From positions 1-59,728 of the IMG/VR virus record IMGVR_UViG_3300046028_010391: a stretch of DNA of 59,728 nucleotides; one strand, given 5' to 3'. This document shows positions 1 to 44,537 of the stretch, piece by piece. Source of the stretch: a virus. The position numbers and the translations under genes were made by a program. Below the pieces are notes generated by a model. That model was given only the letters and a program-made list of their open reading frames with translations, did not search any database and was not told the origin of the DNA. The first letter of the stretch is position 1. Every line of letters starts with the position of its first letter.

Positions 1-2562
1 GTTTCATTTTTAGAAAGCGGTTCACAAAATTCAGCAATTTGGTTAGATGGTACAGACAATATGTTTGACATTTATGCCAACACAAGTCACGGTATAAGAC
101 TTAAAACCGGTGGCGACAATACTCGCTTGACCGTCACAAGTGGCGGTAACGTACTTATTGGAACTACTACGGACGCTGGTCAACTGCTTTATGTTAATGG
201 AACTTCTAGATTTAACTCAACCATTTTTAATGCTAGCCGACTTATGGTCGGAATCACATCTGATCAAACTTATGCCAGCATATTCGTGGCGGGTGATATA
301 ACTACTGGTAGTAACCAGTATGCGGTGTTATTAGACCCACAATTAAGCGGAACAACCAACTATGGTTTGCTTGCTAATGCTCGTATCAAAGCATCGCACG
401 CTGCAAGCATCGCTTATGGTGTATATATCGCTAACAATGAGATATTATCTGGTGCAAGCATAGTCAACAACTATGGATTATACATTGCTAATCAAACTAA
501 TGGCTCATCGCTAAACTATGCTTTGTACTCTGCAGGTGGAACCTCCTATTTTGCTGGTAGCGTAGGTATTGGTACTACTAGTCCATCAAATAAACTTTAC
601 GTTTCTGATACCGTAGAAGATTATGTAGCAGTAATTGAAAACCTTGGAACAGGAACAGCTAAAAACGGTTTATGGATTAAAACTGATAGTAGTTTTACTA
701 ATTCTACAGTTCTAAAAGTAACGGGTACAACTAGTGATTCTGAAACTCTTCAAGTAAACCCAGGTCAAGTAAGAATTGGACCCGGTAGCATAGGTCAGTT
801 TGACGGTACATTATTCTTAACTAGCTCAGCTGCTACAGTAGCAAACTTTGTAGCAAATAATAGTTCAGCTTTATTTATTTCCGGTTCAGGTAACATAGGT
901 ATTGGTACTACTAGTCCAACCTATACTTTAACAGTTGGTAAACAAGCAACATCTGATAATACAGACTATGCTATCGCAGTACTAAGACATGGAACTGGAG
1001 CAGCTCCAGGTTCATGGACTAGCCAACCTGCTATTTTAATAAGTGATCAAACAAACAATGGTCCTGGCACAGTAGATACTACAGGTTTATTTAGTATGCA
1101 GCTAGGTCGATTTGACTATACCGATACTGATGCAACTAATGCTAGTTTAATTAATATTACTTATGATGGAACAGTAGGTCCATTAAGAGTTGACGGTAAG
1201 GGTAATACATGGATCGGATACGATAGAGGTTCAGTACCTGTTAACACTGGTGCTTTTGGATTATTAGTACGAGGAGGTGCTTCTATCGGTAGTAATTATC
1301 AAGCTACTACTCCTCCTTCAAACGGAGCTATTATAGAGGGTAACGTAGGTATTGGTATTACTAGTTCATTCACAACTGGAGGTACAGCTAAACTATCAAT
1401 ATTAGGATCTTCAGTCATGCTTACTATGGGTGCTAGTACATCTGATTTAATGTACTTCCGTCAAGCAGGAGCCGGTGAATACCAAATTCAAACTAATAAC
1501 GGAGGAAATGACGGTAACATCCAACTTCAACCTTATGGAGGTAAAGTAGGTATTGGTACTACTACTCCACTAGCTAAACTACACGTATCAGGTGCTGCGG
1601 TTGATGATATAGGTTTATCTGTATTCCAAAACTCAGTTAACGGATTAGGAGTTTATTACCCAGCAGCTAGTTTTATTAACGTTAATGGAAATCACAGTTA
1701 TGGAATTGTAGCTGAATTTAAAACAGATAATGCTGGTACTAACGATAGACCTTCTATTTTGTTTTATGGAGCTCAAACAACTTCAAGTTGGCAAATAGGT
1801 CAAGGAAATTCACAATGGGGTACTGCTGATGCTTTTATGATAGGATACAGAGCATCAAATACCCCATCAACCTTTAGTGATTGGCCTTCTTCTTATTTTA
1901 CTGTTTTAACAGGTGGTAACGTAGGTATTGGTACTACTACCCCAAACCAGAAATTAAGTGTTGAAGGTGGTAACATTCAGCTTAATGCTAATAATGCAGC
2001 AGCTAATTATTACTTATATTTAAACAAGAAAAGCGGTCAAGATGGTGGTATATTATTTAATAGAGATAACGCTAATGATTGGCAATTAACAAACGGTGCT
2101 GGGAATGGAGATTTAATTTTTTATTCTTATGGAATCAGTAATGATGCAGTAACATTTAAAAGAGCAACAGGTAACGTAGGTATTGGAACAACCTCACCAT
2201 CATACAAACTCCAAGTCTCAGGCGCAATTGCAATAGAGAATCAAGGTACAACAACTATTGAAACAACAACCTTCTCAGGTTCACTTACCACAAACACAAA
2301 CATTGCTTCTGTTCCAACAGCATCCTTTAAAGCAGCATTCTTTGATTACTATGTTGCCTCGGGTTCAGTAAACATGAGAGCCGGAACAGTAATGGCAGTA
2401 CACAACAATTCAACCTCACGATACACAGACACAAGTACAGCCGATATCGGTACTACAGCGGCCGTAGATTTCTCAACATCTATTGTAGCCGGTAGTTTAG
2501 TATTAACAGCAAACATCTCAAGCGGAACTTGGGAAGTAAAAACAGCATATAGAGCATTATAA
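1..2562 (+). CDS. Tail fibre / virion surface protein with VGIGTTSP repeats, 5' partial
   Basis: The reading frame is open from base 1, so the start lies upstream of the window; 853 residues are visible. The protein is Gly/Thr/Asn/Ser-rich and carries at least six copies of a short motif, G-N-V-G-I-G-T-T-S-P followed by a K-L-x-V strand, coded near 556, 889, 1339, 1540, 1915 and 2170. This module is common in beta-structured fibre and adhesin-like proteins, especially in Bacteroidetes and their phages. The likely role is host recognition by a trimeric fibre, but the receptor cannot be read from the sequence. It ends with tandem stops (TAATAA), and the next gene starts in the same frame 12 bases later. 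The family assignment is confident; the exact fibre position on the virion is not. Confidence 0.75.
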   Translation, partial: VSFLESGSQNSAIWLDGTDNMFDIYANTSHGIRLKTGGDNTRLTVTSGGNVLIGTTTDAGQLLYVNGTSRFNSTIFNASRLMVGITSDQTYASIFVAGDITTGSNQYAVLLDPQLSGTTNYGLLANARIKASHAASIAYGVYIANNEILSGASIVNNYGLYIANQTNGSSLNYALYSAGGTSYFAGSVGIGTTSPSNKLYVSDTVEDYVAVIENLGTGTAKNGLWIKTDSSFTNSTVLKVTGTTSDSETLQVNPGQVRIGPGSIGQFDGTLFLTSSAATVANFVANNSSALFISGSGNIGIGTTSPTYTLTVGKQATSDNTDYAIAVLRHGTGAAPGSWTSQPAILISDQTNNGPGTVDTTGLFSMQLGRFDYTDTDATNASLINITYDGTVGPLRVDGKGNTWIGYDRGSVPVNTGAFGLLVRGGASIGSNYQATTPPSNGAIIEGNVGIGITSSFTTGGTAKLSILGSSVMLTMGASTSDLMYFRQAGAGEYQIQTNNGGNDGNIQLQPYGGKVGIGTTTPLAKLHVSGAAVDDIGLSVFQNSVNGLGVYYPAASFINVNGNHSYGIVAEFKTDNAGTNDRPSILFYGAQTTSSWQIGQGNSQWGTADAFMIGYRASNTPSTFSDWPSSYFTVLTGGNVGIGTTTPNQKLSVEGGNIQLNANNAAANYYLYLNKKSGQDGGILFNRDNANDWQLTNGAGNGDLIFYSYGISNDAVTFKRATGNVGIGTTSPSYKLQVSGAIAIENQGTTTIETTTFSGSLTTNTNIASVPTASFKAAFFDYYVASGSVNMRAGTVMAVHNNSTSRYTDTSTADIGTTAAVDFSTSIVAGSLVLTANISSGTWEVKTAYRAL

Positions 2563-2574
2563 TAAAACATAGTT

Positions 2575-3132
2575 ATGGCAACAGATTACGATTTTATAGT
2601 TAGAAAAGGAAATTTAGGGGTTGGAACAGCAACTCCCGGAACTAAACTTCATGTATCCGGAGCAATTTCCGGTTCATCAATTAATTTTGGACAAACTACT
2701 TTAAATTTTTATGAAGAAGGTGTTTGGACTCCTTCTCTTGATACCACTAATAATAATTTAGGTACTGTAAACTACACTACTGATCCAGTTGGACTTTATA
2801 CTCGTATTGGAAATGTAGTTCACGCTTGGTTTGATATTGAGGTAAATGATATTACTTTAAGTGCAAACACAGGTACTGGAACTATTGATGATTTACCATA
2901 TGCTTCAAACTCAAGTATTGGAGTATTTTCCTCTTTAATAATCACTGAAGGAGGTTTATTAGGTGCAGGTGCAGCAGGTACTCAAGTTAAAGGATATATT
3001 GTTGGTGGTGAAAGTAGAATTATTATAGATTATTATGATTCTGGTGCTAATGGTTTTGGGTTAAATGGTAGATCTTTATACAATGCTGTAAATGGAGGTG
3101 TACTTTCTGGTTATATAACATATCAAGTTTAA
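2575..3132 (+). CDS. Short tail fibre or fibre-tip protein
   Basis: A 185-residue protein. Residues 12-30 repeat the G-N-L-G-V-G-T-A-T-P...K-L-H-V-S-G module of the preceding fibre. The remainder is a different domain with a G-V-W-T-P-S-L motif and a G-L-Y-T-R-I-G-N-V-V stretch, a pattern often seen in receptor-binding fibre tips. The start is the ATG preceded by AGTT, the context shared by many genes here. Its position directly after the long fibre suggests a partner, a tip or an exchangeable adhesin. It could also be a C-terminal part split off by the tandem stop codons at 2560-2565. Confidence 0.65.
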   Translation: MATDYDFIVRKGNLGVGTATPGTKLHVSGAISGSSINFGQTTLNFYEEGVWTPSLDTTNNNLGTVNYTTDPVGLYTRIGNVVHAWFDIEVNDITLSANTGTGTIDDLPYASNSSIGVFSSLIITEGGLLGAGAAGTQVKGYIVGGESRIIIDYYDSGANGFGLNGRSLYNAVNGGVLSGYITYQV

Positions 3133-3353: not shown

Positions 3354-4550
3354 ATGGCAAACGTTCCTATTTGGCCTGGCTCATCATCATTTTTCCCTGG
3401 AGATACGCCTTTTGGTTTTTACGATAATCAATATGATTTCCAAGTTGATGCTGATAAAGTAGCAAAGTTCTGTGCTATTCGTTTAGGTTACCCTATCGAA
3501 AACGTAGAACTGCAAGCTGTAAACTTTTACACTGCTTTTGAAGAAGCAACTACAGTTTACGGCAACGAATTATACGCATATCAATTAAGAGATAACTATT
3601 TATCTTTAGAAGGTGTAACACAATCTATTGATGTTAACGACAGTATCATCACACCTTCAATGGCAAACATTGTTAGACTGTCTCAACAGTATGGTGAGGA
3701 AGCAGGAGCTGGTGGTAACGTAACTTGGCTTAAAGGTCAATTAATGCTTACAGCATCTGTTCAACAATATGACCTAAAAGCATGGGCCATTGAAAATGGA
3801 ATTTCAGGCGGTATAGAAATTAAAAACGTTTGGTATCAACCACCTCCAGCAATTAACCAATTATATTCTCCCTACATGTTAGGTCAAGGTGGAGGTGCTG
3901 GTTTAGGAGGTGTTCCTGCAGCTGGTGTTTATGGCTTTGGATATGGATACTCTAACTATCTTATGATGCCTACAAGTTACACAATGCAGAATCTTCAAGC
4001 AATTGAAATGCAAAACACTGTAACTTTATCTAACTATACCTTTAATATTATAAATAATATTATTACAGTATTCCCAGTACCTGGTACTGGAATGGGTGAT
4101 GGTGATTTTGATGGGGCAGACGGTTTAGGATATGGTGAAATCTTAGTATTCGACTTTATTAAAGTAGAAGACAGATTAAACTCAGCTGTAACAAATGGTA
4201 TAGGAAAAATTTCAAACGCCTCAAACGTTCCATACACTAACCCTAACTATAACGATATTAACTCTGTAGGTAGATCTTGGATATTTGAATACACATTAGC
4301 ATTATCTAAAGAAATGTTAGGTTACACTCGTAACAAATATTCTTCAATACCAATTCCAGGGGCAGAAGTAACATTAAATGGTGATACATTAGTTACAGCT
4401 GCTACTACAGAAAAAGAAAATTTAATTACAAGATTAAGAGAATATTTTGATTCAACATCTCGTCAAGCATTATTAGAAAGAAGATCAGCAGAATCTACTG
4501 CAAGACAAAATGAATTGAATCAATCACCAATGACAATCTTTATAGGATAA
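3354..4550 (+). CDS. 13: Neck protein, T4 gp13-like
   Basis: A 398-residue protein. The N-terminal region (about residues 28-75) resembles T4 gp13: a helix with K-F-C-A-I-R-L-G-Y-P, then I-E-N-V-E-L and a helical segment with Y-x-x-F-E-E-A-x-x-x-Y. The middle is Gly-rich. It is followed with one-base overlaps by gp14-like and gp15-like genes, the T4 gene order 13-14-15, which supports the call. In T4, gp13 and gp14 form the neck that completes the DNA-filled head and receives the tail. The protein is longer than T4 gp13 (309 aa). The assignment rests on weak similarity plus gene order. Confidence 0.6.
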   Translation: MANVPIWPGSSSFFPGDTPFGFYDNQYDFQVDADKVAKFCAIRLGYPIENVELQAVNFYTAFEEATTVYGNELYAYQLRDNYLSLEGVTQSIDVNDSIITPSMANIVRLSQQYGEEAGAGGNVTWLKGQLMLTASVQQYDLKAWAIENGISGGIEIKNVWYQPPPAINQLYSPYMLGQGGGAGLGGVPAAGVYGFGYGYSNYLMMPTSYTMQNLQAIEMQNTVTLSNYTFNIINNIITVFPVPGTGMGDGDFDGADGLGYGEILVFDFIKVEDRLNSAVTNGIGKISNASNVPYTNPNYNDINSVGRSWIFEYTLALSKEMLGYTRNKYSSIPIPGAEVTLNGDTLVTAATTEKENLITRLREYFDSTSRQALLERRSAESTARQNELNQSPMTIFIG

Positions 4551-5071
4551 TGGCACTATTTGGACAAGCTAGAGATATTTCAATGTTTAGATACATCAAC
4601 CGCGAGTTGATGCAAAACATTATTTCTCAACAAGTAGTATTTTATAAAGTAAACCTTACAGAAACAAAAACAAATATGTATGGTGAGGCAAATATGGGAA
4701 GAGTATTTCAACAACCTTTACTTATATATGCTTTAATCGAAACCAGCAATTTTGAAAACCCAGTTGATGATTTTGGTGTTGACTTTAAATGGAGTGTTCA
4801 ATATAGATTCTTACGAGATGATTTAGTTGACGCTAATGTTCAACCTGAGGTAGGTGACTTTATAATGTTCCAAAATGGATATTGGGAAATTGACAACGTA
4901 AACACAAGTCAATTCTTTGTAGGTAAAGATCCTGCTTATCCATATACGGATGCTAATAATGTTAACCCATTAGAAACTGATTTGAATGAGTTTGGTTACA
5001 ATGTAAGTGTAATATGTGATGCTCACTATGTACCTGCTGATCGTGTTGGAATTGTTAATCAAAGAATATAA
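4550..5071 (+). CDS. 14: Neck protein, T4 gp14-like
   Basis: A 173-residue protein, shorter than T4 gp14 (256 aa). A segment reading P-E-V-G-D-F-I-M-F-Q-N-G-Y-W-E-I resembles the gp14 stretch G-D-L-V-Y-F-P...L-F-E-I, and the N terminus M-F-R-Y-I-N-R-E-L-M-Q is helical. The start codon overlaps the previous stop by one base, and the stop overlaps the next start by one base, so the three neck and terminator genes look translationally coupled. The likely role is head-tail joining together with the gp13-like protein. The call depends partly on gene order. Confidence 0.55.
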   Translation: MALFGQARDISMFRYINRELMQNIISQQVVFYKVNLTETKTNMYGEANMGRVFQQPLLIYALIETSNFENPVDDFGVDFKWSVQYRFLRDDLVDANVQPEVGDFIMFQNGYWEIDNVNTSQFFVGKDPAYPYTDANNVNPLETDLNEFGYNVSVICDAHYVPADRVGIVNQRI

Positions 5072-5913
5072 TGGCTACTAGAAAACCGACTCCAAAAACC
5101 CAAAAAGAGATAAGCTTATCTCAACATAAGGCAACTGCTCCTGAATGGGGAAATCCAAACGATAGATTAAAGCCAAATCGCTCACAACAGGTATCGTGGA
5201 AAGGAGATGATGTAAAACCATTTAGCGTTGGTATTCAAGACATTGATGAAGCCGTTTTTTATTATTTTAATGAAGTAATTAAACCTTCAGTATTGCAAAA
5301 TGGTGAACGTTTACCTGTTCCCGTAATTTATGGTTCTCCTGAAAAATGGAAATCATATCAAAGAGATGGATTTTACCGAGATATAAAAGGTAAAATTATG
5401 GCACCTCTTATCATGTTCAAAAGAACAGATATTACAAAAAACAGAACTATTACAAACAAGTTAGACGCTAACAACCCAAACAACTATAGTGTTTCTAAAA
5501 AAAGCTATGACGCACGAAACGAATATAGTCAATTTAACGTATTAAATAACCGAACTCCTGAAATTCAATACTACGCCACAGTTGTGCCTGATTATGTTAC
5601 TATAACGTATACATGCGCGGCATTTACGTACTATGTTGAGCAACTAAACAAAATAGTTGAGGCAATTGAATATGCTTCCGATGCATACTGGGGTAATCCT
5701 GAAAGATACCAATTTAAAACAATGATCGATTCTTTTGGTTTTCAAACCGAACTAACTAACAACGACGAACGTATTATTAGAAGTACATTCGATTTAAGAA
5801 TTAACGGCTACATCATTCCAGACACATTACAGAAAGATGTAACAGCTATATCGAAATTCTCAAACACAACTCAGGTATTGATATCAGAAACTACTGTAAA
5901 TAAGCTGCCTTAA
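5071..5913 (+). CDS. 15: Tail terminator / sheath stabiliser, T4 gp15-like
   Basis: A 280-residue protein, close to T4 gp15 (272 aa). After a basic, low-complexity N terminus (residues 1-50), a strand-rich domain contains P-V-P-V-I-Y-G-S-P-E-K-W, M-A-P-L-I-M-F-K-R-T-D-I and a C-terminal D-L-R-I-N-G-Y-I-I-P. These match the gp15 pattern of R-V-P-I-T-Y-A-S, later F-E-V-N-G-W-M-Y-P. T4 gp15 caps the finished tail tube and sheath and binds the neck. It is the last gene of the 13-14-15-like set. Confidence 0.65.
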   Translation: MATRKPTPKTQKEISLSQHKATAPEWGNPNDRLKPNRSQQVSWKGDDVKPFSVGIQDIDEAVFYYFNEVIKPSVLQNGERLPVPVIYGSPEKWKSYQRDGFYRDIKGKIMAPLIMFKRTDITKNRTITNKLDANNPNNYSVSKKSYDARNEYSQFNVLNNRTPEIQYYATVVPDYVTITYTCAAFTYYVEQLNKIVEAIEYASDAYWGNPERYQFKTMIDSFGFQTELTNNDERIIRSTFDLRINGYIIPDTLQKDVTAISKFSNTTQVLISETTVNKLP

Positions 5914-5962: not shown

Positions 5963-8900
5963 ATGGCTGAAAACAGGTACAGTGGTAATAATCGATTAGA
6001 CAACCCAAACCAAGGTAGGGGTTTCTTTGATAGATCACTTGGCTTTAACAAATATAACTTACCTATCGTAACACAAGGATGGGAGGGATATGTCTTAACA
6101 ATTGATGATGAGGGTGTTGTATCGTTAGTTCAAGGAGGAGGCGGAGGAAGTGGTACAACAGGTACATCTGGTACATCAGGTACTAGCGGTACTTCAGGTT
6201 CTTCTGGTACATCAGGTATAACAGGTTCAAGTGGACAATCAGGTACAAATGGTACTTCAGGTGTAAATGGTACTTCAGGTACTTCAGGATCAACAGCAGG
6301 TACCTCAGGTACTTCTAGCTCATCTGGTACTTCTGGCACAAGTGGATCTTCTGGATCATCTGGTTCTTCAGGTAGTTCTGGTATAGAAGGTTCTTCAGGT
6401 ACAAGTGGAGGTACAAGCGGTACTTCTGGTAGCTCAGCAAGTGCTGGTTCTTCAGGTACAGCAGGTACAAGTGGATCTTCAGGTTCATCTGGTTCAGCGG
6501 GTGCTGGTGGTAATAGTGGTCAATCTGCAACTTCAGGTACAAGTGGAACATCAGGTTCTTCTGGTACAAGTGGTTTAACCTCATCGTCTGGTTCATCTGG
6601 TACATCTGGCTCTTCAGGTAGTTCAGGTTCAAATGGATCTTCTGGTATAGCAGGAAATAGTGGTCAAAGTGCTACCTCAGGAACATCAGGTTCTTCTGGT
6701 AGTACAGGTACTTCAGGTTTAGCGGCATCTTCTGGTAGTTCAGGTTCATCTGGTTCTAGTGGTAGTAGTGGTTCAAATGGTGTTTCTGGTAACAGCGGTC
6801 AATCAGCAACTTCAGGCACAAGCGGTAGCTCAGGTTCATCTGGTACCTCAGGTTTAACTGGTTCATCAGGTTCAAGTGGTACTTCAGGTTCATCAGGATC
6901 TAGTGGTTCGAATGGATCATCAGGTATTGCTGGAAATTCAGGACAAAGTGCAACTTCAGGTACTTCAGGTTCATCAGGTTCATCAGGTACTTCAGGTTTA
7001 GTAGGTTCGTCAGGCACTTCAGGCACTTCAGGATCTTCTGGTAGCTCAGGTTCAAATGGATCATCAGGTATTGCTGGAAATTCAGGACAAAGTGCAACTT
7101 CTGGTACTTCAGGTTCAAGTGGAAGTACAGGTACTTCAGGTTTAGTAGGTTCGTCAGGTACTTCAGGTTCATCAGGTAGCTCAGGAAGTTCAGGATCAAA
7201 CGGATCTTCTGGTGTATCAGGAAATAGTGGTCAAAGTGCAACCTCAGGTACAAGCGGTAGCTCAGGCAGTTCAGGTACTTCAGGTTTAGTAGGTTCAAGT
7301 GGTACTTCAGGTTCATCAGGTAGTTCAGGTACATCTGGAACAAGTGGTTCTTCAGGTGTAAACGGAAACTCAGGACAAAGTGCAACCTCAGGTACAAGTG
7401 GAAGTTCAGGTTCAACTGGTACTTCAGGTTTATCTGGATCAAGTGGTTCAGCAGGAACTTCAGGCACAAGCGGAACATCAGGTTCATCAGGTAGTTCAGG
7501 TTCATCTGGTGCAAACGGTAATAGTGGTCAAAGCGCCACTTCTGGTACTTCAGGTTCAAGTGGAAGTACAGGCACTTCAGGTTTATCTGGTATTTCAGGA
7601 TCTTCAGGCACAAATGGCACTTCAGGTACATCAGGTTCAAACGGAACAAATGGTAACTCTGGTAATAGTGGTCAATCTGCTACTTCTGGAACATCTGGTT
7701 CAAGTGGAAGCTCAGGTACTTCAGGTTTAGCCGGTAATTCTGGTACATCAGGTACTTCAGGTACATCTGGTGTTTCAGGTAGTGCAGGAACTTCAGGTAG
7801 TTCAGGTACATCAGGTACAAATGGTACTGCAGGAACTAGCGGTACATCAGATTCTTCAGGAACATCAGGTTCGTCAGGAACTTCAGGTACAGCAGGTACC
7901 TCTGGAAGTTCAGGCACAAGCGGAAGCTCAGGTAGTTCTGGTACCTCAGGTCTAGCAGGTGCTAGTGGTATATCAAATACAAGTGGTACAAGCGGTACTT
8001 CTGGTTCTTCTGGTACAAGTGGTTCAAGCGGTTCATCAGGAACTAGTGGTACTTCTGGTTCTTCAGGAACAAGTGGTAGTTCAGGAACTTCAGGTTCATC
8101 TGGAACATCTAACTCAAGTGGAACTAGTGGAAGTTCAGGTTCATCTGGTTCAACAGGTACAAATGGTACTTCAGGTGCCTCAGCAACTTCAGGTACAAGC
8201 GGTACTTCAGGATCCTCAGGATCAAATGGTGCTGCCGGTAATAGCGGTCAAAGTTCAACTTCAGGTACTTCAGGAAGCTCAGGTTCAACTGGTACTTCAG
8301 GTTTAGCAGCATCTTCTGGTACAGCAGGTACATCTGGTACATCAGGTACAAATGGCACTTCAGGTACTTCAGGTACAAGCGGTTCTTCAGGCACAAGCGG
8401 TGCTGCAGGAACTTCAGGTACAAACGGTACCTCAGGTACAAGCGGATCTTCTGGTACAAACGGTACAGCAGGAACTAGTGGTACAAGTGGTACTTCAGGT
8501 AGTTCAGGTACTTCAGGTATTGCCGGTGCAGCAGGTGCTTCAGCAGTAAGTGCTACTTCTGGTACTTCAGGTACATCTGGATCTTCAGGTACAGCAGGTA
8601 CATCAGGTTCAGCAGGTACAAGTGGAACTTCAGGTACTTCAGGTACAAATGGTACTTCAGGTACATCTGGATCTTCAGGTTCAAGTGGTGCATCTGGTAA
8701 TAGCGGTCAATCAGCAACTTCAGGCACAAGCGGAAGTTCTGGTTCAACTGGTACTTCAGGTTTATCAGGTAATGCTGGATCTTCTGGTACAAGCGGAACA
8801 AGTGGAACAAGTGGTTCTTCTGGTACAAACGGTACTTCAGGAGCAGCTGGTTCTTCAGGTACAAATGGTACATCTGGTACTTCAGGTAGTTCAGGCACAA

Positions 8901-10861
8901 ACGGTACCTCTGGAGTAGCCGGAAGTTCAGGCACTTCAGGTTCATCTGGAACATCAGGTTCTAGTGGAACCAGTGGAACTTCAGGAACTGCAGGTACTAG
9001 TGGTACAAACGGAACAAGTGGTACTTCAGGCAGTTCAGGTACTTCAGGTGTAGATGGGGGTTCAGGAGCATCAGGTACTTCAGGTACAAGCGGAACTTCA
9101 GGTTCAAGTGGTAGTAATGCATCAAGTGGTGCCGCAGGTAATAGCGGTCAGAGCTCTACTTCAGGTACTTCAGGTTCAAGTGGAAGTTCAGGCACTTCAG
9201 GTTTAGTAGGATCTTCAGGAAGAAGTGGTTCAAGCGGAACCGCAGGTACAAATGGTACCTCAGGTACATCAGGTGTAAGTGGTTCTTCAGGAACTTCAGG
9301 TGCTTCTGGAACAAACGGAACAAATGGAACATCAGGTGTATCTGCAACTTCAGGTACATCAGGATCTTCTGGTACAAGCGGAACATCAGGTACTTCAGGT
9401 TCATCAGGTACTTCAGGTTTAGCAGGTGCTAGTGGTATATCAAACACAAGCGGAACATCAGGCACTTCAGGTTCAAATGGAACTTCAGGAGCTGCAGCAA
9501 CTTCAGGTACAAATGGCACTTCAGGTGCTTCAGGTACAAACGGTACAACTGGAACTTCAGGTGTTTCTAGTACGGCAGGTACAAATGGTACAAGCGGTGC
9601 TTCAGGTACAAACGGAACAAATGGTACAAGCGGTGCTTCAGGAACTTCAGGTACAAGCGGAACTTCAGGAGCTTCAGGTACAAGTGGCACTTCAGGTGCA
9701 TCTGGTACTTCAGGTACAAATGGTACAAGTGGAACAAGTGGATCATCAGGCACTTCAGGTATAGCAGGTGCTGCTGGTTTTTCTGCAGCTAGTGCAACTT
9801 CTGGTACTTCTGGAACAAGTGGTTCTTCAGGTACAGCCGGTGCTTCAGGTGCTTCACAAACAAGTGGTACAGCTGGAACATCAGGTGCTTCTCAAACAAA
9901 TGGAACTAATGGTACTAGTGGTGCCTCAGGTACAAACGGAACAAATGGCACTTCAGGTGCTTCCGGAACAAATGGTACAAGTGGAGCTAGTGCAACAAGC
10001 GGTACTTCAGGTACAAGCGGAAGTTCTGGTACTTCAGGTCTAGCAGGTGCTAGTGGTATATCCCAAACAAGTGGTACTTCAGGCACAGCAGGTTCAAACG
10101 GTACATCAGGTAATTCAGGTACTTCAGGTACAGCTGGTAACTCAGGAGCAAGTAATACTTCAGGTACAAATGGTACTAGTGGTGCTAGTGCAACAAGCGG
10201 TACAGCCGGTACTTCAGGTTCATCTGGTACTTCGGGTGTAGATGGAGGTTCAGGTGCTTCTGGTACTTCAGGTACAAGCGGTACAAGCGGTACAGCAGGT
10301 ACTTCAGGTGCTTCAAATACTTCAGGAACAGCAGGTACCTCAGGTGCTTCAAATACATCTGGTACAGCTGGAACTAGTGGTAATTCAAGAACATCAGGTA
10401 CTGCAGGTACAAGTGGTAGTTCAGGTACTTCAGGTATTGCAGGTGCTGCAGGTTTATCAGCAGCAAGTGGTACCTCAGGTACAAGCGGTTCAGCAGGTAC
10501 TTCAGGTTTATCATTTAATGGTACCTCAGGTATTAGTGGTGGTACATTTAACAACCAACCAAACTATTTAGTTTATACAGTATCTGCAACTACAATACAG
10601 TCTGTAGACTTTGTTACAATTAACAACGCTTCAGATTTAATGCGTGTTAATGATGGTGTTAGTGGAGCTATTTTACAAACTAACCGTTTAGAAATTGATA
10701 CTCCAGGAGTTCAACCCCCAGCTAACCCACCAGCAGGAGGTAACATGGTAGATTTAGTATTTAGTAATCTTCCTCCAAACAACGTTTTAGGAGAACCAGA
10801 CTCATGGATTGAAATAATATATGCAGGAAACAGATATGCTGTTCCAGGTTATATATTCTAA
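5963..10861 (+). CDS. Giant collagen-like (Gly-X-Y) Ser/Thr-rich fibre protein
   Basis: A 1632-residue protein in three parts. Residues 1-60 form a short non-repetitive head, probably the virion anchor. Residues about 62-1525 are Gly-X-Y triplets in which X and Y are almost only Ser, Thr, Asn and Ala, with no proline. In some places the Gly is replaced by Ala or Ser without loss of register, as in G-Q-S-A-T-S-G-T-S. Residues 1526-1632 form a globular C-terminal domain ending in A-V-P-G-Y-I-F, likely a trimerisation knob or tip. Collagen-like triplets occur in phage fibres and bacterial spore hairs (BclA), where Thr residues can carry glycans. The adjacent glycosyltransferase genes make this fibre a plausible glycosylation substrate. 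An alternative is a flexible linker or whisker. Confidence 0.8.
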   Translation: MAENRYSGNNRLDNPNQGRGFFDRSLGFNKYNLPIVTQGWEGYVLTIDDEGVVSLVQGGGGGSGTTGTSGTSGTSGTSGSSGTSGITGSSGQSGTNGTSGVNGTSGTSGSTAGTSGTSSSSGTSGTSGSSGSSGSSGSSGIEGSSGTSGGTSGTSGSSASAGSSGTAGTSGSSGSSGSAGAGGNSGQSATSGTSGTSGSSGTSGLTSSSGSSGTSGSSGSSGSNGSSGIAGNSGQSATSGTSGSSGSTGTSGLAASSGSSGSSGSSGSSGSNGVSGNSGQSATSGTSGSSGSSGTSGLTGSSGSSGTSGSSGSSGSNGSSGIAGNSGQSATSGTSGSSGSSGTSGLVGSSGTSGTSGSSGSSGSNGSSGIAGNSGQSATSGTSGSSGSTGTSGLVGSSGTSGSSGSSGSSGSNGSSGVSGNSGQSATSGTSGSSGSSGTSGLVGSSGTSGSSGSSGTSGTSGSSGVNGNSGQSATSGTSGSSGSTGTSGLSGSSGSAGTSGTSGTSGSSGSSGSSGANGNSGQSATSGTSGSSGSTGTSGLSGISGSSGTNGTSGTSGSNGTNGNSGNSGQSATSGTSGSSGSSGTSGLAGNSGTSGTSGTSGVSGSAGTSGSSGTSGTNGTAGTSGTSDSSGTSGSSGTSGTAGTSGSSGTSGSSGSSGTSGLAGASGISNTSGTSGTSGSSGTSGSSGSSGTSGTSGSSGTSGSSGTSGSSGTSNSSGTSGSSGSSGSTGTNGTSGASATSGTSGTSGSSGSNGAAGNSGQSSTSGTSGSSGSTGTSGLAASSGTAGTSGTSGTNGTSGTSGTSGSSGTSGAAGTSGTNGTSGTSGSSGTNGTAGTSGTSGTSGSSGTSGIAGAAGASAVSATSGTSGTSGSSGTAGTSGSAGTSGTSGTSGTNGTSGTSGSSGSSGASGNSGQSATSGTSGSSGSTGTSGLSGNAGSSGTSGTSGTSGSSGTNGTSGAAGSSGTNGTSGTSGSSGTNGTSGVAGSSGTSGSSGTSGSSGTSGTSGTAGTSGTNGTSGTSGSSGTSGVDGGSGASGTSGTSGTSGSSGSNASSGAAGNSGQSSTSGTSGSSGSSGTSGLVGSSGRSGSSGTAGTNGTSGTSGVSGSSGTSGASGTNGTNGTSGVSATSGTSGSSGTSGTSGTSGSSGTSGLAGASGISNTSGTSGTSGSNGTSGAAATSGTNGTSGASGTNGTTGTSGVSSTAGTNGTSGASGTNGTNGTSGASGTSGTSGTSGASGTSGTSGASGTSGTNGTSGTSGSSGTSGIAGAAGFSAASATSGTSGTSGSSGTAGASGASQTSGTAGTSGASQTNGTNGTSGASGTNGTNGTSGASGTNGTSGASATSGTSGTSGSSGTSGLAGASGISQTSGTSGTAGSNGTSGNSGTSGTAGNSGASNTSGTNGTSGASATSGTAGTSGSSGTSGVDGGSGASGTSGTSGTSGTAGTSGASNTSGTAGTSGASNTSGTAGTSGNSRTSGTAGTSGSSGTSGIAGAAGLSAASGTSGTSGSAGTSGLSFNGTSGISGGTFNNQPNYLVYTVSATTIQSVDFVTINNASDLMRVNDGVSGAILQTNRLEIDTPGVQPPANPPAGGNMVDLVFSNLPPNNVLGEPDSWIEIIYAGNRYAVPGYIF
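6150..10542 (+). repeat. Tandem Gly-X-Y coding repeats with a 144-bp higher-order unit
   Basis: The DNA is built of 9-base units such as GGTACTTCA. On top of this, a landmark coding for G-N-S-G-Q-S-(A/S)-T-S recurs with its Asn codon at 6512, 6656, 6791, 6935, 7079, 7223, 7367, 7520, 7664, 8240, 8699 and 9140. The early spacings are 144, 135, 144, 144, 144, 144, 153 and 144 bases, that is 48 residues plus or minus exactly one triplet. The later spacings are 576, 459 and 441. Confidence 0.85.
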
Positions 10862-10862
10862 A

Positions 10863-10894
10863 CTTGGATATTTAAAATATTTTTTATATATTTA
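10863..10894 (+). promoter_or_regulatory. Putative promoter TTG-N20-TATATTTA
   Basis: CTTG (10863-10866), 20 bases, then TATATTTA (10887-10894), 29 bases before the ATG at 10924. It fits the host-type pattern seen elsewhere in the window, and its -7 box also resembles the late motif, so it may be a hybrid site driving the glycosylation module. Confidence 0.45.
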
Positions 10895-10923
10895 TTGACA
10901 CAAACTGTTATTAAAATAAATTT

Positions 10924-11202
10924 ATGGCTATTAAAAAATTAACCAAAAAAGAGATCGACGCTCTTAAAGAAATCCAACAGAAAAACAATGCTATCGTAGC
11001 TGAATTTGGTAATCTTAGAATTGCTAAATTGCAACTTGAAGCTAGAGAAACTGAGCTTGTTAAGTTCTTCAATGATTTAAAAGAAGAAGAAAGTGAAATA
11101 GGTAAAACCCTTTCTGACAAGTACGGTGTTGGTACTATCAACATTGAAAACGGCGAATTTATTCCCGCCGAGACTGAAGGTACAGAAAAAGCTTCATTCT
11201 AA
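10924..11202 (+). CDS. Small coiled-coil protein, paralogue of the 15332-15580 gene
   Basis: A 92-residue, highly charged helical protein. Residues about 8-66 should form a coiled coil. The tail has S-D-K-Y-G-V-G-T-I-N followed by I-E-N-G-E-F-I-P. The gene at 15332-15580 encodes a clear paralogue with the same order of features: E-F-G/K-F-G after the first helix, then an E-I-G motif, then K-Y-G...I-N...G-E-x-V/I-P. The two copies bracket the glycosyltransferase cluster. The function is not known to me. A chaperone or structural adaptor for a fibre would suit the context, but that is inference. Confidence 0.6.
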   Translation: MAIKKLTKKEIDALKEIQQKNNAIVAEFGNLRIAKLQLEARETELVKFFNDLKEEESEIGKTLSDKYGVGTINIENGEFIPAETEGTEKASF

Positions 11203-11220
11203 TTTTACTTAACAAAGGTT

Positions 11221-13212
11221 ATGGAGAAACTACTATATGTAGCGCCTCATTTATCAACTGGGGGATTACCTCAGTATTTAACTAAAAAAATTGAACTATT
11301 AAAAGATAGTTATGAAATTTATTTGGTTGAATGGGTTGATTGTACAGGAGGTGTATTAGTAGTTACTCGTAATAAAATTGTAAAGCTTGTCGACCCCGAC
11401 AAGTTTTTTACTTTAGGAGAAAATAAACACGAACTTATCGATATTATAAATAAAGTTCAACCCGATATTGTTCATTTAGAAGAAATTCCTGAATTCTTTA
11501 TGGACTTTGAGGTTGCTAAAAAACTTTATACAAAGGAAAGAAAGTATAAAATCGTAGAAACATCTCACGATTCATCTTACGATACAACTCAAAAGAAATT
11601 CTTTCCCGATAAGTTCATGTTTGTCTCTGAATGGCAGGTTCAACAATACAAAGACATAGATATTCCTAAAGTAGTTGTATACTACCCTATCGAATATGTT
11701 GAACGCCCTGATAGAACAGAAGCATTAAAGAAATTAGGATTAGACCCAAGTAAAAAACATATTTTACATATTGGACTATTTACCCCACGTAAAAATCAGG
11801 CTGAATTTTTTGAATATGCTAAAGCATTGTCCCAATATGAATTCCATTGTGTAGGTAATCAAGCAGATAATTTTAAACATTATTGGGAACCGTTAATGAA
11901 TAACAAACCCAATAATTTAACCTGGTGGAATGAACGTACAGATGTAGATGCTTTCTATCAGGCAATGGATTTGTTTTTATTTACGTCTCGTGGTACAAAC
12001 AATGATAAAGAAACAATGCCTTTAGTAATTAGAGAGGCAGTTTCATACCAAATACCAGTTTTAATATATAATCTTCCAGTTTACCTTAATTATTGGGATG
12101 ATTATAATGTAAATTACTTAGATTTTACAGATTTTTCTTATAATTTAAGTTTAATTGAATCTACTTTACATTATGTAAATAAACCTAAGATTGAAGAAGA
12201 AGCAGTTGTAATTTCAACATACCCAATGTTAGAATCAATTTCTAAAACTACAGAGGAATGTATCAAATCTATTCAATCATCTGGTAGAAAGGTTATATTA
12301 ACATCACACATCCCAGTTTCGGAAAAGTTACAAGAACTTGCTGATTATTATGTTTATGATAAAAATAATCTTTTAACAAAACATACTTACTATCAATACA
12401 CATGGTTTGATTTTGGTAATTGGAGAGTAGATTTATTGTTAAATGGAGAAGATAATGACATTTATCATGGACCAGCAGTTTATACAAATTATTATAATGC
12501 TGCTGCATTAGCTCAAGATTTAGGTATTAAAAAATTATACTTTTTAAATTATGATTATTATCTATCTAACCCTAAATTTTTAGATGATATATCTCAAATC
12601 CTAGACCAGAAAAAAGCATATGTTGGTTTTAAAAAAGAACAAGAAGGTAATACAGTAATTACTTACTTTTTAGCATCAACACCTAAATTCTATCTTGACC
12701 ATTTCCCATCAATATCTACTTCAGAAGAGTACGATAGTTTAATGACAAAATGGGGTAGTGAATCTAATGGTTTAGAAAATTTAACATACCATACATTTAA
12801 CCAAAACAAAGATCAGGTATATTGGGAAGATGAACCTAATTTTACTAAATTAATAGGTGAAAATTTTGAACATAAAGATTATTCAAGAGTAGAATATTTT
12901 TCAGTATTACCTGTTAAAAATCATGATAATCAATTTGCAGTATTTTTAAGTATAGCTAATTCAGTTGATAATAGAGATATTGAAATTTCTGTATACGAGG
13001 ATGATCAAATGTTATTTGATGAAACGATAAAAGTGTTAGGTAAAGTATCTTGGTTTAGACAGGTATTCTTTAATCCTGAAAAAACATATAAAATATATTA
13101 TCATGCTCACGATAGGCATAATCAAAAACTTGTTGAACGTAAACAGATTATAGTAAATAAGGATTATTACGATAATAAACTAAATAAAAACGGATTCTTA
13201 ACACTAAAATGA
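11221..13212 (+). CDS. GT-B (family 4-like) glycosyltransferase with long C-terminal extension
   Basis: A 663-residue protein. The N terminus (Y-V-A-P-H-L-S-T-G-G-L-P-Q-Y) is the glycine-rich acceptor-side loop of GT4 enzymes. Residues about 180-310 form the second Rossmann domain, with H-I-G-L-F-T-P-R-K-N-Q and an M-P-L-V-I-R-E-A-V-S-Y-Q-I-P-V donor-binding segment containing the typical E-x7-E-like region. After about residue 325 comes an extra ~340 residues. This starts with V-V-I-S-T-Y-P-M, looks alpha/beta and ends in a strand-rich part; I do not recognise it. The next gene overlaps by four bases (ATGA), so the cluster is an operon. The likely role is sugar transfer to a virion protein or glycan. 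Confidence 0.75.
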   Translation: MEKLLYVAPHLSTGGLPQYLTKKIELLKDSYEIYLVEWVDCTGGVLVVTRNKIVKLVDPDKFFTLGENKHELIDIINKVQPDIVHLEEIPEFFMDFEVAKKLYTKERKYKIVETSHDSSYDTTQKKFFPDKFMFVSEWQVQQYKDIDIPKVVVYYPIEYVERPDRTEALKKLGLDPSKKHILHIGLFTPRKNQAEFFEYAKALSQYEFHCVGNQADNFKHYWEPLMNNKPNNLTWWNERTDVDAFYQAMDLFLFTSRGTNNDKETMPLVIREAVSYQIPVLIYNLPVYLNYWDDYNVNYLDFTDFSYNLSLIESTLHYVNKPKIEEEAVVISTYPMLESISKTTEECIKSIQSSGRKVILTSHIPVSEKLQELADYYVYDKNNLLTKHTYYQYTWFDFGNWRVDLLLNGEDNDIYHGPAVYTNYYNAAALAQDLGIKKLYFLNYDYYLSNPKFLDDISQILDQKKAYVGFKKEQEGNTVITYFLASTPKFYLDHFPSISTSEEYDSLMTKWGSESNGLENLTYHTFNQNKDQVYWEDEPNFTKLIGENFEHKDYSRVEYFSVLPVKNHDNQFAVFLSIANSVDNRDIEISVYEDDQMLFDETIKVLGKVSWFRQVFFNPEKTYKIYYHAHDRHNQKLVERKQIIVNKDYYDNKLNKNGFLTLK

Positions 13213-14156
13213 AAATTTGCCAAGTAAACCCAGGTTGCGGAATTCCAATCCCACCTCCAGCATGGGGTGCGGTTGAAAAAATTGTATGGGAATTTACTTG
13301 TAATCTTAAACAATTAGGTCACGAGGTAGATATTAAATGGGCTAGTGAAGTACAATCAGGTGAATATGATTTAGTAATGGTACACGTTGCTAATCTAGCA
13401 TTAGAATTAGCAGATCGAGGAATACCTTATGTATTTCAACACCATGATCATCATGCTTATCATTATGGTAAAAACTCAGATGTTTACAAACAAAACAGAC
13501 AAGCAATGGAGCGTTCGGTATTTTCATTGGTACCGGCTCGTTATCTTGTAGAATATTTTAATTTACCAAATGTACATTATTTTTCACATGGTGTAAATAC
13601 AGATACATTTTATCCTAACGAAACACCTCCATTAGCACATAATTTATTAATGTTAGCAAATAATGGTTTAGGTGGATACGGTTCATATGATAGAAAAGGA
13701 TTTGAATTAGGTGTTAAAATAGCAATGGCCCGTAATTTACCTATTACAATTGTTGGTCCTAAAAATAATGAAAATTGGTTTGAAGAAAATTCATGGGTAT
13801 ATGGTTATCCAAAATTGTCAATTATATATGAACCTTCGAATGAAACTCTAAGACAAATTTATACCTCATATACTATATTTTTACATCCCTCAGAATTAGA
13901 AGCTGGGCACCCTAATTTAACTTTGTTAGAAGCTGCCGCTTGTGGTTTACCTATTTTGGGTTGGATAGAAACAGATACTACATTCCACGGGTTATGGAGA
14001 GCACCAAGAGATTTTAATGAAATGTTGCGTGGGTTAGATACAATAATTAATGAATATGGTCATTACCGTCAACGAGCATTACAGACAGCAAATGAATTAT
14101 CTTGGTTAAATCGTTCTAAAGAATTAATAATATTACATGAAAGATATTTTAATTAA
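13209..14156 (+). CDS. GT-B (family 4-like) glycosyltransferase
   Basis: A 315-residue protein, short for the family. It opens with K-I-C-Q-V-N-P-G-C-G-I-P-I-P-P-P-A-W-G and A-V-E, the nucleotide-sugar glycosyltransferase N-terminal loop. A His-rich segment follows (F-Q-H-H-D-H-H-A-Y-H, about residues 78-87). The second domain has S-H-G-V-N-T-D-T-F-Y-P and a C-terminal S-E-L-E-A-G-H-P-N-L-T-L-L-E-A-A-A-C-G-L-P, the donor-binding motif of GT4. It overlaps its upstream neighbour by four bases and its downstream neighbour by 20. The acceptor is unknown; the context suggests protein-linked glycan on the fibre. Confidence 0.8.
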   Translation: MKICQVNPGCGIPIPPPAWGAVEKIVWEFTCNLKQLGHEVDIKWASEVQSGEYDLVMVHVANLALELADRGIPYVFQHHDHHAYHYGKNSDVYKQNRQAMERSVFSLVPARYLVEYFNLPNVHYFSHGVNTDTFYPNETPPLAHNLLMLANNGLGGYGSYDRKGFELGVKIAMARNLPITIVGPKNNENWFEENSWVYGYPKLSIIYEPSNETLRQIYTSYTIFLHPSELEAGHPNLTLLEAAACGLPILGWIETDTTFHGLWRAPRDFNEMLRGLDTIINEYGHYRQRALQTANELSWLNRSKELIILHERYFN

Positions 14157-15330
14157 AGAATATTCAAATACAAAAATATTAAATATTGAAAGTAAAAAAC
14201 CACAAAATACTTTTAATGTTAATTTTGTTAATGGTGCCTTTTTAGAAGTTTTAGGTCCTTTAGAAGGAGAATATAATGTAAAATTTATTAATCGTAAAAC
14301 AAATCGTGTAATGCACGAAAGTACGATTAATAATAATATGTGGACCCGTACTAACATTAAATACTGCGTTAATTGGCGTGTAGAAGTTTATAGTAACGGC
14401 GATTTAGTATTTGAACATAATTGGGATCCAAAAGGAAAACGCGTTTATATACACATTGATTCTGGTGCGATGGGTGATACTTTAGCATGGTTCCCTTACA
14501 TTGAAGAATTCAGAAAAACATTTATGTGTGAGGTAATTTGCTCAACATTCCACAATGAATGGTTCGAAGGAAATTATCCTAATATTGAATTTGTAAAACC
14601 TGGATTTCAAGTAGATAACATTTATGCGATGTATAGTATTGGATGGTTTTACGATGGTAAAAAAGTTGTGTTTGATAAAATTCCAATTGATTTTAAAAAA
14701 TATCCTTTACAACAAACAGCAAGCGAAATTTTAGGGTTAAAATATTCTGAAGTTAAACCTATTATAAATTCACCAAAATCTAAAACAGATATTGAAGGTG
14801 ATTATGTTGTAATAGCCCCACATGCTTCGGCTCACGCTAAGTATTGGAATCACAAAGGTGGTTGGCAAACAGTAATCGATTATTTGAATGATAAAGGTTA
14901 TAAAGTTGTAATGATTACACAAGAACCTTTAGGTGATGAATGGCATGATTCTAAATTAGGAGGTACTTTAACTGGAGTAATTAATAAAACCGGAGATTTA
15001 CCATTACAAGATAGAATGATCGATATCCGTGATGCAAAAGCATTTATAGGAGTAGGTAGTGGATTAAGTTGGTTATCTTGGTCTTTAAACACACCAACAA
15101 TTATGATTTCAGGATTTAGTTACCCATACACTGAATTTCAAGAATGCGAACGTGTTTACCCTGAAGATCCTAAAACATGTAAAGGATGTTTTAACCGCAA
15201 ATGGTTAGATCCAGGAGATTGGGAATGGTGCCCAGATTATAAAGATACTCCGCGACATTTTGAATGCACAAAAACAATAGAATCCTCTCAAGTAATTAAT
15301 TCTCTTAATAGAATACTTAATATTTATTAA
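14137..15330 (+). CDS. Autotransporter O-heptosyltransferase-like (Aah/TibC family) glycosyltransferase
   Basis: A 397-residue protein. After a strand-rich N-terminal domain, I-H-I-D-S-G-A-M-G-D-T-L-A-W-F-P (about residues 104-119) starts a GT9-like GT-B fold. Later motifs are V-V-I-A-P-H-A-S-A-H-A-K-Y-W-N and F-I-G-V-G-S-G-L-S-W-L-S-W. The C terminus has four cysteines arranged C-K-G-C...W-C-P...F-E-C-T, like the Fe-binding cysteines of the bacterial autotransporter heptosyltransferases TibC and Aah, which put heptose on Ser residues of repetitive beta-helical adhesins. In this phage the nearby repetitive fibres at 1-2562 and 5963-10861 are the obvious candidate acceptors. The family call is from remembered motifs; the sugar and target are inferred. 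Confidence 0.7.
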   Translation: MKDILIKEYSNTKILNIESKKPQNTFNVNFVNGAFLEVLGPLEGEYNVKFINRKTNRVMHESTINNNMWTRTNIKYCVNWRVEVYSNGDLVFEHNWDPKGKRVYIHIDSGAMGDTLAWFPYIEEFRKTFMCEVICSTFHNEWFEGNYPNIEFVKPGFQVDNIYAMYSIGWFYDGKKVVFDKIPIDFKKYPLQQTASEILGLKYSEVKPIINSPKSKTDIEGDYVVIAPHASAHAKYWNHKGGWQTVIDYLNDKGYKVVMITQEPLGDEWHDSKLGGTLTGVINKTGDLPLQDRMIDIRDAKAFIGVGSGLSWLSWSLNTPTIMISGFSYPYTEFQECERVYPEDPKTCKGCFNRKWLDPGDWEWCPDYKDTPRHFECTKTIESSQVINSLNRILNIY

Positions 15331-15331
15331 T

Positions 15332-15580
15332 ATGGAAAATAAAGTTCTAGCACCAGAAGAGTTATCTAAGTTACAAGAATTAAATAATAAACGAGGAGAT
15401 TTGATCGAAAAGTTTGGAGTGATTGAAATTAATATACAAGATCTTGAACTTCAAAAAGAACAACTAATCGAAGAGTTATCACAAATTAAAAAGGCCGAAT
15501 TAGAAATTGGTGCTTTGTTACAACAAAAATATGGTGATGCGAACATAAATTTATCCACGGGAGAAATAGTCCCAAGGTAA
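15332..15580 (+). CDS. Small coiled-coil protein, paralogue of the 10924-11202 gene
   Basis: An 82-residue, mostly helical, charged protein. It aligns along its length with the product of 10924-11202: two helices with a K-F-G break, then A-E-L-E-I-G, then Q-K-Y-G-D-A-N-I-N and T-G-E-I-V-P-R. It lies one base after the heptosyltransferase-like gene stop and closes the glycosylation module. The function is unknown. Duplicate copies flanking three glycosyltransferases suggest either a working link to them or a duplication made when the module was inserted. Confidence 0.6.
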   Translation: MENKVLAPEELSKLQELNNKRGDLIEKFGVIEINIQDLELQKEQLIEELSQIKKAELEIGALLQQKYGDANINLSTGEIVPR

Positions 15581-40361: not shown

Positions 40362-41177
40362 ATGAATAAACAAGCAGTATTGTCACTAAGTGGAGGTATG
40401 GACAGCTCCACATTGTTGCTTCATCTACTCGCCAATGGCTATGAAGTGACAGCACTGTCTTTTGACTATGGTCAAAAACATAGAGTTGAACTTGAGCGTG
40501 CTCAAGATTTAGTAAACTATCTAAATTCTCAATGTACCGATAACAATTGTTATGGTGGATGTAAGATTAAATATCAAGTAATTAAACTTGATGGTTTGAG
40601 TCAACTACTTAATTCATCACTTGTAACAGGTGGAGATGAAGTACCTGAAGGTCACTATGCTGAAGAAAATATGAAGGCAACAGTTGTACCTAATCGTAAT
40701 AAAATCTTTAGTTCAATTATTCAAGCAGTAGCTTTAAGTATAGCAAACAAAACCAATTCAGAGGTTAAAATTGCTTTAGGAGTACATAGCGGAGATCATT
40801 CAATTTACCCAGATTGTACGGATGAATGGAGAAAATCAGATGAAATAGCATTTAAAACAGGAAATTGGGATTCACATCTAGTAAATTATTATGTTCCCTA
40901 TATGGAAGGAAATAAATTTACTATTCTACAAGATGGAGAAAAATGTTGTAAACAATTAAGTCTTGATTTTAACGAAATATATAAACGTACAAATACATCT
41001 TATAAACCATACCCTTCAGGAAACTCTGATTATATGTCTGCTTCAAGTGTTGAACGTGTAGAAGCATTTATTGCTTTAGGTCGTCCTGATCCTGTAACTT
41101 ATGAAGATGAAGATGGTATTGCTTCATGGGATAAAGTAGTTGCTCATGTATCTAAAGTACTAGCTAGCCATGAGTGA
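40362..41177 (+). CDS. queC: QueC-like 7-cyano-7-deazaguanine synthase lacking the usual zinc cysteines
   Basis: A 271-residue protein. The PP-loop S-G-G-M-D-S-S (10-16), S-F-D-Y-G-Q-K-H-R-V-E-L and V-P-N-R-N identify QueC, which converts 7-carboxy-7-deazaguanine through the amide (ADG) to preQ0 using ATP and ammonia. The C-terminal C...C-x2-C-x2-C zinc site is not present: the matching stretch (about 218-245) reads S-Y-K-P-Y-P-S-G-N-S-D-Y-M-S-A-S-S-V-E-R. An insertion near the N terminus has Cys58, Cys63 and Cys67, which might form a different site. The enzyme may therefore stop at ADG or have another metal site. It lies in the dpdA-queC-queD-queE-folE cluster. Confidence 0.8.
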   Translation: MNKQAVLSLSGGMDSSTLLLHLLANGYEVTALSFDYGQKHRVELERAQDLVNYLNSQCTDNNCYGGCKIKYQVIKLDGLSQLLNSSLVTGGDEVPEGHYAEENMKATVVPNRNKIFSSIIQAVALSIANKTNSEVKIALGVHSGDHSIYPDCTDEWRKSDEIAFKTGNWDSHLVNYYVPYMEGNKFTILQDGEKCCKQLSLDFNEIYKRTNTSYKPYPSGNSDYMSASSVERVEAFIALGRPDPVTYEDEDGIASWDKVVAHVSKVLASHE

Positions 41178-41454
41178 TGGAATCACCGAAGCTCGTAGAG
41201 GTACTTACTTTAAAAACGATAAATACAATAAAAGTATAATTAATTGGGAATTACATCAGAAAATGAATAATAAAAAATCTAAAATAGATAAAGATTTTAA
41301 ACATATGCCTAACCAAAAATGGCACAAAATTATAAGTTTTATCAAATCAGGGGTTAGAATTGTAGGTTACGGACTTATCCCATTTAATTTGGTAGTTGCA
41401 ACAATTGTACTTATCTTTAGTGAAGTTATTGGCATTGTTGAAGAATTAGTATGA
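41170..41454 (+). CDS. Small membrane protein
   Basis: A 94-residue protein overlapping the queC end by 8 bases. The first 60 residues are basic and polar; a hydrophobic segment follows (about 66-90: V-G-Y-G-L-I-P-F-N-L-V-V-A-T-I-V-L-I-F), ideal for one transmembrane helix. Function unknown. It is co-transcribed with the 7-deazaguanine genes but shows no enzyme motif. Confidence 0.5.
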   Translation: MSDGITEARRGTYFKNDKYNKSIINWELHQKMNNKKSKIDKDFKHMPNQKWHKIISFIKSGVRIVGYGLIPFNLVVATIVLIFSEVIGIVEELV

Positions 41455-41657
41455 CACGTAGACCCTATAGAAAGTCGGTTCCATTCCAAGAAATGTATGT
41501 TATTATAAACCAAAATGGAGAAGTATTTACAGGATTAAAAAAAGGTTACCCTGAGTATTCTTGGGATTGGTCACAAGCAAAACCACTATTTATAGAGAAC
41601 ACAAAATACCTGTTAAGAGAAACAGGGACAGAATTAATCAAAGAATCAGAATTATGA
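41451..41657 (+). CDS. Small hypothetical protein (68 aa)
   Basis: A 68-residue basic protein with the ATGA start-stop overlap on both sides. The segment Y-V-I-I-N-Q-N-G-E-V-F-T-G-L-K-K-G-Y-P looks like a small beta-meander, and S-W-D-W-S-Q-A-K-P-L-F follows. No family is assigned. Its position between the membrane protein and thioredoxin suggests the same transcript. Confidence 0.5.
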   Translation: MTRRPYRKSVPFQEMYVIINQNGEVFTGLKKGYPEYSWDWSQAKPLFIENTKYLLRETGTELIKESEL

Positions 41658-42356: not shown

Positions 42357-42358
42357 TT

Positions 42359-43141: not shown

Positions 43142-43150
43142 TATTTATTC
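43140..43150 (+). promoter_or_regulatory. Putative late promoter (AATATTTATTC)
   Basis: AATATTTATTC overlaps the queE stop and ends four bases before the ATG of the secreted nuclease gene. If it works as a late promoter, it would set nuclease expression apart from the early operon around it. Confidence 0.4.
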
Positions 43151-43154
43151 TCAT

Positions 43155-44529: not shown

Positions 44530-44537
44530 TATATTAT
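44506..44537 (+). promoter_or_regulatory. Putative host-type promoter of folE
   Basis: CTTG (44506-44509), 20 bases, TATATTAT (44530-44537), 14 bases before the ATG at 44552. Confidence 0.55.

Follow-up and report, generated by a model that had tools for sequence, protein, structure and literature searches.

Why does a phage place three glycosyltransferase-like genes beside the gene of a very long collagen-like fibre, and do these enzymes act on that fibre? The locus that raises this question lies in the window, by which we mean the whole analysed stretch of 59,728 nucleotides (IMG/VR record IMGVR_UViG_3300046028_010391). According to its gene content (phrog_23 sheath, phrog_211 head-tail adaptor, a gp32-like protein and a family B polymerase), the source record, a virus of 59.7 kb, is a fragment of a T4-like myovirus. 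All genes of the locus are located on one strand, in this order:

3354–5913, plus strand: neck/connector-type genes upstream of the fibre, assigned by synteny and, for 3354–4550, by a match to phrog_211
5963–10861, plus strand: collagen-like fibre, 1632 aa, the proposed acceptor
10924–11202, plus strand: small coiled-coil-like protein, 92 aa, by eye similar to the product of 15332–15580
11221–13212, plus strand: GTa, 663 aa, with a GT4 domain (PF00534), a putative C-terminal GT-A-like domain and a beta-sandwich
13209–14156, plus strand: GTb, GT4-type glycosyltransferase, 315 aa (PF00534)
14137–15330, plus strand: homologue of Aah/TibC-type O-heptosyltransferases, 397 aa (TIGR04414, 4rap)
15332–15580, plus strand: second small coiled-coil-like protein, 82 aa
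15634–17367, plus strand: tail sheath (phrog_23, E-value 3.8e-71), the anchor for the control set

The preliminary description had the three glycosyltransferase genes following the fibre directly; they do lie downstream of it, but the 92-aa ORF (10924–11202) intervenes. Two similar coiled-coil-like proteins of about 85 aa are thus encoded on either side of the glycosyltransferase genes. An ORF of the 82-aa type also precedes the sheath in phages that do not possess the cassette; since one copy is present there, this small coiled-coil-like gene may have been duplicated and the cassette inserted next to it. Promoters and terminators, for which the surroundings of the cassette were scanned, were no more frequent than in shuffled sequences.

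The proposed acceptor has a collagen-like repeat. A fibre of 1632 residues with a long Gly-X-Y region had been claimed before, and this is borne out by an ORF open over 1632 aa, by a match to the Pfam family Collagen (PF01391, E-value 1e-161, 12 stretches) and by triplet counts: windows in which one triplet phase is at least 80% Gly cover 1437 residues (the Gly-X-Y windows), and a triplet walk gave 447 G-X-Y units with 136 residues out of phase. A virion-attachment-like N-terminus of about 58 aa, which is conserved in 18 fibre contigs, is followed by about 1460 aa of Gly-X-Y and a C-terminal domain of about 100 aa. Ser and Thr account for 52% of the Gly-X-Y region (512 Ser, 259 Thr), Pro and Lys are absent, and the most frequent triplets are GTS (168) and GSS (98). 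As no 60-mer recurs and the codons vary (169 GTS copies are encoded by 21 different 9-mers), the repeat exists at the protein level; an artefact of repetitive DNA was considered and dismissed, the other frames containing 16–288 stops each. With neck and sheath genes adjoining, the long Gly-X-Y repeat stands in a virion-gene context, which places the protein among the collagen-like phage fibres. The known members of this group in phages and prophages (phrog_5073, phrog_1806; E. coli EPclA, PMC3368898) likewise carry Gly-X-Y in a tail fibre; unlike them, the fibre of the window is much longer, is nearly devoid of proline and charged residues and has linked glycosyltransferases. EPclA produced as a recombinant protein carried no glycosylation (PMC3368898). 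No match to a 2OG-Fe(II) oxygenase of the P4H/PLOD-like kind was found beside the collagen in the window; such oxygenases occur in related phages with Gly-Pro collagens.

Which reaction might the enzymes catalyze? An indication comes from the third one: by sequence, the product of 14137–15330 is a clear Aah/TibC relative, as the preliminary description had supposed. The profile search for the heptosyltransferase family that had been suggested there returned TIGR04414 with 310.7 bits (curated equivalog cut-off 200); moreover, the protein aligns with the TibC structure 4rap over residues 22–393 (E-value 2e-56) and matches PF01075 (1.6e-11). In TibC, Asp-110, Lys-230, Arg-286, Trp-305 and Cys-339/342/358/370 matter for activity (Yao et al., PMC4358343). 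The window protein retains D114, S231, K235, R293 and W312, the exchange of Thr-226 for Ser being conservative, and its four C-terminal cysteines (C348, C351, C365, C377) are in register with those of TibC and form an iron finger motif that is invariant across 29 aligned proteins. The N-terminal beta-barrel family PF21129 scored 14.6 bits (cut-off 27). Pro-300 sets the stereoselectivity of TibC; the corresponding residue of the window protein is a glycine, which is why a choice between D,D- and L,D-heptose is not predictable. PHROGs holds no family for the gene; among predicted structures, one record for a protein from an uncultured phage bears the automatic name 'Glycosyltransferase Aah/TibC'. 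In common with the known Aah/TibC system (TIGR04414; 4rap, PMC4358343), there are full-length homology, the catalytic base, the sugar-binding residues, the iron-finger cysteines and the position beside a long repetitive Ser/Thr-rich surface protein. Differences from that system are the neighbour, which is a collagen-like fibre of a phage and not an autotransporter with strand-loop-strand repeats, the presence of GT4-type companions and a clade separate from the sampled autotransporter-linked enzymes. Because of this neighbour, we file the gene as a TibC homologue by sequence and not as an autotransporter heptosyltransferase.

An identity as LPS heptosyltransferase (WaaC/WaaF/WaaQ-type GT9) was rejected, as all scores are far below the equivalog cut-offs: 36.5 versus 467 bits for RfaQ, 27.9 versus 170.2 for type III, 26.4 versus 185.3 for type I and 12.5 versus 134.6 for type II. 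These values bear on a different reading of the locus, according to which the enzymes modify host LPS or O-antigen against superinfection and the adjacency of the fibre merely reflects a shared variable host-recognition region. Glycosyltransferases and rfaE in the host-recognition clusters of pelagimyophages have been interpreted in this way (PMC7029224), and LPS synthesis commonly involves GT4 families. Considering that the profile of a protein O-heptosyltransferase family outscores those of the LPS families to such an extent, and given the comparisons described below, we regard this reading as unlikely.

The two companions are also glycosyltransferase-like, in agreement with the earlier description of all three downstream genes: PF00534 matches GTa with an E-value of 8.9e-13 and GTb with 2.1e-6, while PF01075 is the family of the third gene. 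AlphaFold models of GTa (pLDDT 82.6 and 89.8) gave GT4 matches in Foldseek and, weakly (TM about 0.35), folds of the glycogenin/COLGALT1 type, which makes the GT-A-like assignment of the C-terminal domain a weak one. A fusion of GTb with TibC is found in L285 and in a megaphage of 735 kb.

If the enzymes serve the fibre, both should be found in the same phages. TibC relatives were detected in at least 232 IMG/VR stretches and in only 4 of 50,697 phage records. For the comparison, loci ascertained with the sheath as an independent anchor were combined with a TibC-centred set and dereplicated at 95% sheath identity, which resulted in 46 loci. Ser/Thr collagen was present in 18 of 25 TibC-positive and in 0 of 21 TibC-negative loci (p = 2e-7, Fisher test uncorrected for shared ancestry); one of the 18 Ser/Thr-collagen groups includes members of the L036/L033 type, whose own stretch carries a YadA-like fibre. 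For any collagen, the numbers were 21 of 25 and 2 of 21 among the same loci. Within the sheath-ascertained loci alone, which were not dereplicated, Ser/Thr collagen accompanied TibC in 8 of 13 cases and occurred in none of 22 TibC-negative ones (p = 5e-5); as most of the compared loci stem from related T4-like phages, they are non-independent samples, and the Fisher tests ignore shared ancestry. A search starting from the fibre N-terminus led to the same picture: all contigs that reach past the enzymes carry TibC, few distinct contigs being that long. At locus L082, whose sheath is 86% identical, the neck genes are followed by the sheath, and fibre, GTa, GTb and TibC are all absent, a loss of the cassette as a unit. 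Flavobacterium phage immuto is the closest isolate by sheath, and its whole genome contains neither collagen nor TibC.

A locus inherited by common descent could produce such a linkage by chance or hitch-hiking, with no functional tie between fibre and enzymes, and the relatedness of the T4-like phages speaks for this possibility. We nevertheless consider it highly improbable, since the pairing recurs in varied gene arrangements (separate genes, GTb-TibC fusion, GT4-TibC fusion and GT4-FkbM-TibC fusion) and in Methylobacter. In Microcystis phage Mel-JY01, an isolate, a Ser/Thr collagen ORF lies 1.7 kb from a GT4-FkbM-TibC fusion, the FkbM part being taken from the annotation of the record. This ORF of 1016 aa (L158, PP395634.1, positions 2–3052) is covered there by annotated hypothetical proteins, most of them placed on the opposite strand. 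In the 735-kb phage LR756501, a Ser/Thr collagen ORF adjoins a GTa-like gene and a GTb-TibC fusion. In the isolates Methylobacter luteus and Methylobacter sp. BlB1, only about 40 bp separate the TibC ORF from the end of an upstream collagen-like protein, which carries a secretion signal as judged by eye and, in M. luteus, exceeds the cut-off of PF01391. The Methylobacter pair (L167:6953–9155, L168:6950–9170) is a bacterial counterpart of the phage fibre-TibC pair; at many other bacterial TibC loci, the neighbour is a long G/S/T/A-rich autotransporter-like ORF, and no Ser/Thr collagen is found. In a TibC tree with only ten bacterial rows, a branch supported by 100/100 splits the phage and Methylobacter enzymes from the other sampled bacterial TibCs, including that of ETEC.

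The preliminary description had also named glycosyltransferases that travel without repetitive fibres as an observation that would speak against its proposal. The data show mostly the opposite, namely a strong co-occurrence that recurs in deep lineages; there are, however, exceptions. The 636-kb phage LR756504 possesses TibC and no collagen, and in the examined stretches of L008 and L152 TibC is present and collagen is lacking. At L036 and L033, TibC stands beside a YadA-like repeat fibre instead of collagen; here (L036:1–9076 and L033) the TibC cassette with a sulfotransferase adjoins the YadA-head-like repeats that replace the collagen. At L112, L123, L270 and L280, the neighbour is a Gly-Pro collagen with almost no Ser/Thr, so that the acceptor must be other than collagen Ser/Thr; TibC could act there on a glycan under construction, on a different protein or on residues that have been hydroxylated. 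The Gly-Pro collagens, the YadA-like repeats and LR756504 show that collagen Ser/Thr is not the acceptor in every phage.

One might therefore assume a glycosylated virion in which TibC acts on another Ser/Thr-rich repeat protein, for example the 833-aa fibre at 61–2562, or adds a later sugar. The persistence of TibC beside Ser/Thr-poor Gly-Pro collagens and non-collagen repeat fibres fits this assumption, as does the loss of the Arg-286 equivalent in some divergent phage TibCs. On the other hand, Ser/Thr-rich non-collagen fibres also occur in TibC-negative phages, whereas Ser/Thr collagen tracks TibC, and the Methylobacter enzyme pairs with a short collagen-like protein, no such fibre being present. 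For the window, we judge the assumption unlikely and prefer the collagen-like fibre as acceptor.

Further support for an action on the adjacent fibre comes from its chemistry. Among 33 lineages with both TibC and collagen, a P4H-like 2OG-Fe(II) oxygenase (PF13640) was found in all 6 whose collagen contains 3% Pro or more and in 1 of the 27 below this value (p = 6e-6), the single exception being L284; a GT4-GT25-2OG protein occurs in 4 of the 6 Pro-containing lineages. Sublineages possess enzymes that could decorate a glycan: an FkbM methyltransferase and a carbamoyltransferase (L081), or a sulfotransferase (L036). Because the enzyme sets follow the Pro content of the fibre, the match is best explained by enzymes acting on the neighbouring fibre. 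Neither these composition-linked sets, prolyl-hydroxylase-like genes included, nor the joint gain and loss of fibre and enzymes is predicted by a modification of host LPS. The Gly-Pro collagen phages (L123:1379–9688, L112, L134, L129, L138, L270 and L280) encode the P4H-like 2OG-Fe(II) oxygenase, the GT4-GT25-2OG (OGFOD2/lysyl-hydroxylase-like) protein, several unassigned 'ISGQPR' proteins and a GT4-TibC fusion; this gene set is possibly a phage cassette for collagen hydroxylation and glycosylation.

Taken together, we consider it likely that the region of the window is a TibC-led O-glycosylation cassette for a virion fibre, inserted between neck and sheath genes; the comparison across many phages indicates, rather than proves, that its enzymes sugar-coat the fibre. 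The phage would produce a very long Pro-free collagen-like fibre, with Thr and Ser at most of the X and Y positions, which would become part of the virion. Late in infection, the TibC-type enzyme would attach in the cytoplasm the first sugar, probably a heptose, to Ser/Thr hydroxyls of the fibre, the donor probably being host ADP-heptose; GTa and GTb would then lengthen the glycan. The main benefit is likely a stabilized and hydrated triple helix in spite of the absence of Pro or hydroxyproline, and shielding (which the preliminary description had suggested, alongside receptor mimicry) or adhesion are possible added benefits. Our preference for stabilization over shielding as the purpose has two grounds: collagens are known to be stabilized by glycosylation of Thr (cited in PMC3368898), and hydroxylase-like genes occur where Pro is present. 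If this is true, the glycoprotein fibres of a widespread group of phages from aquatic habitats are built by means of a repurposed adhesin heptosyltransferase, and virion maturation, in place of 'host LPS modification', becomes the role of part of the phage glycosyltransferase repertoire. In addition, these phages would be natural sources of hydroxyproline-free, glycosylated collagens, and the folding of proline-free collagens would become a testable question.

To a more general proposal, namely that phages possess modular collagen-maturation cassettes, we assign about even chances. TibC-led O-glycosylation would serve Pro-free Ser/Thr collagens, with sulfo-, methyl- or carbamoyltransferases added in some lineages, and prolyl/lysyl-hydroxylase-like and GT25-type enzymes would serve Gly-Pro collagens. 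Such cassettes would be a phage counterpart of the collagen modification in animals and giant viruses, two alternative chemistries stabilizing the viral triple helix. The modification of BclA-type spore collagens and of mimivirus collagen relies on other enzyme families in other organisms. These cases (reviewed in PMC8968730) resemble the proposed system in that collagen-like proteins are sugar-modified, by hydroxylation and glycosylation in mimivirus; here the enzyme is of the TibC type and the system belongs to a bacteriophage. The pelagimyophage clusters share with the window glycosyltransferases beside tail-fibre genes in T4-like phages and, in some cases, heptose-pathway genes; they differ in being interpreted as modifying host O-chains, and the cited part of PMC7029224 describes no TibC-fibre pairing. 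In the searched open literature on phages with TibC, heptosyltransferases, collagen-like proteins or hydroxylases, no such system was described.

The supply of the donor is assumed for the window phage. Heptose-pathway families (RfaE domains, GmhA) had no match in the window fragment or in most of the larger relatives, and in most phages of this kind the ADP-heptose would have to come from the host. Two TibC-bearing megaphages encode one heptose-pathway enzyme each: an RfaE-type heptose kinase (306 bits, below the cut-off of 345) in the 735-kb phage LR756501 (L159 and L161:8696–9682) and a GmhA above the cut-off in the 636-kb phage LR756504 (L162:8084–8653). An RfaE-like match in G001 (L030) was set aside as donor evidence, as it sits in a nucleotide-sugar gene cluster. 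Contigs L165 and L166 are binned with Flavobacteriales genomes, which only hints at a host among the Bacteroidota. Elsewhere in the window, a further lone GT4 glycosyltransferase is encoded at 56206–57642, and QueC-like, radical SAM and GTP cyclohydrolase I genes together with a Cpn60 chaperonin gene are found at 40362–45256 and 49801–51414; the first three point to a possible DNA modification of the deazapurine type.
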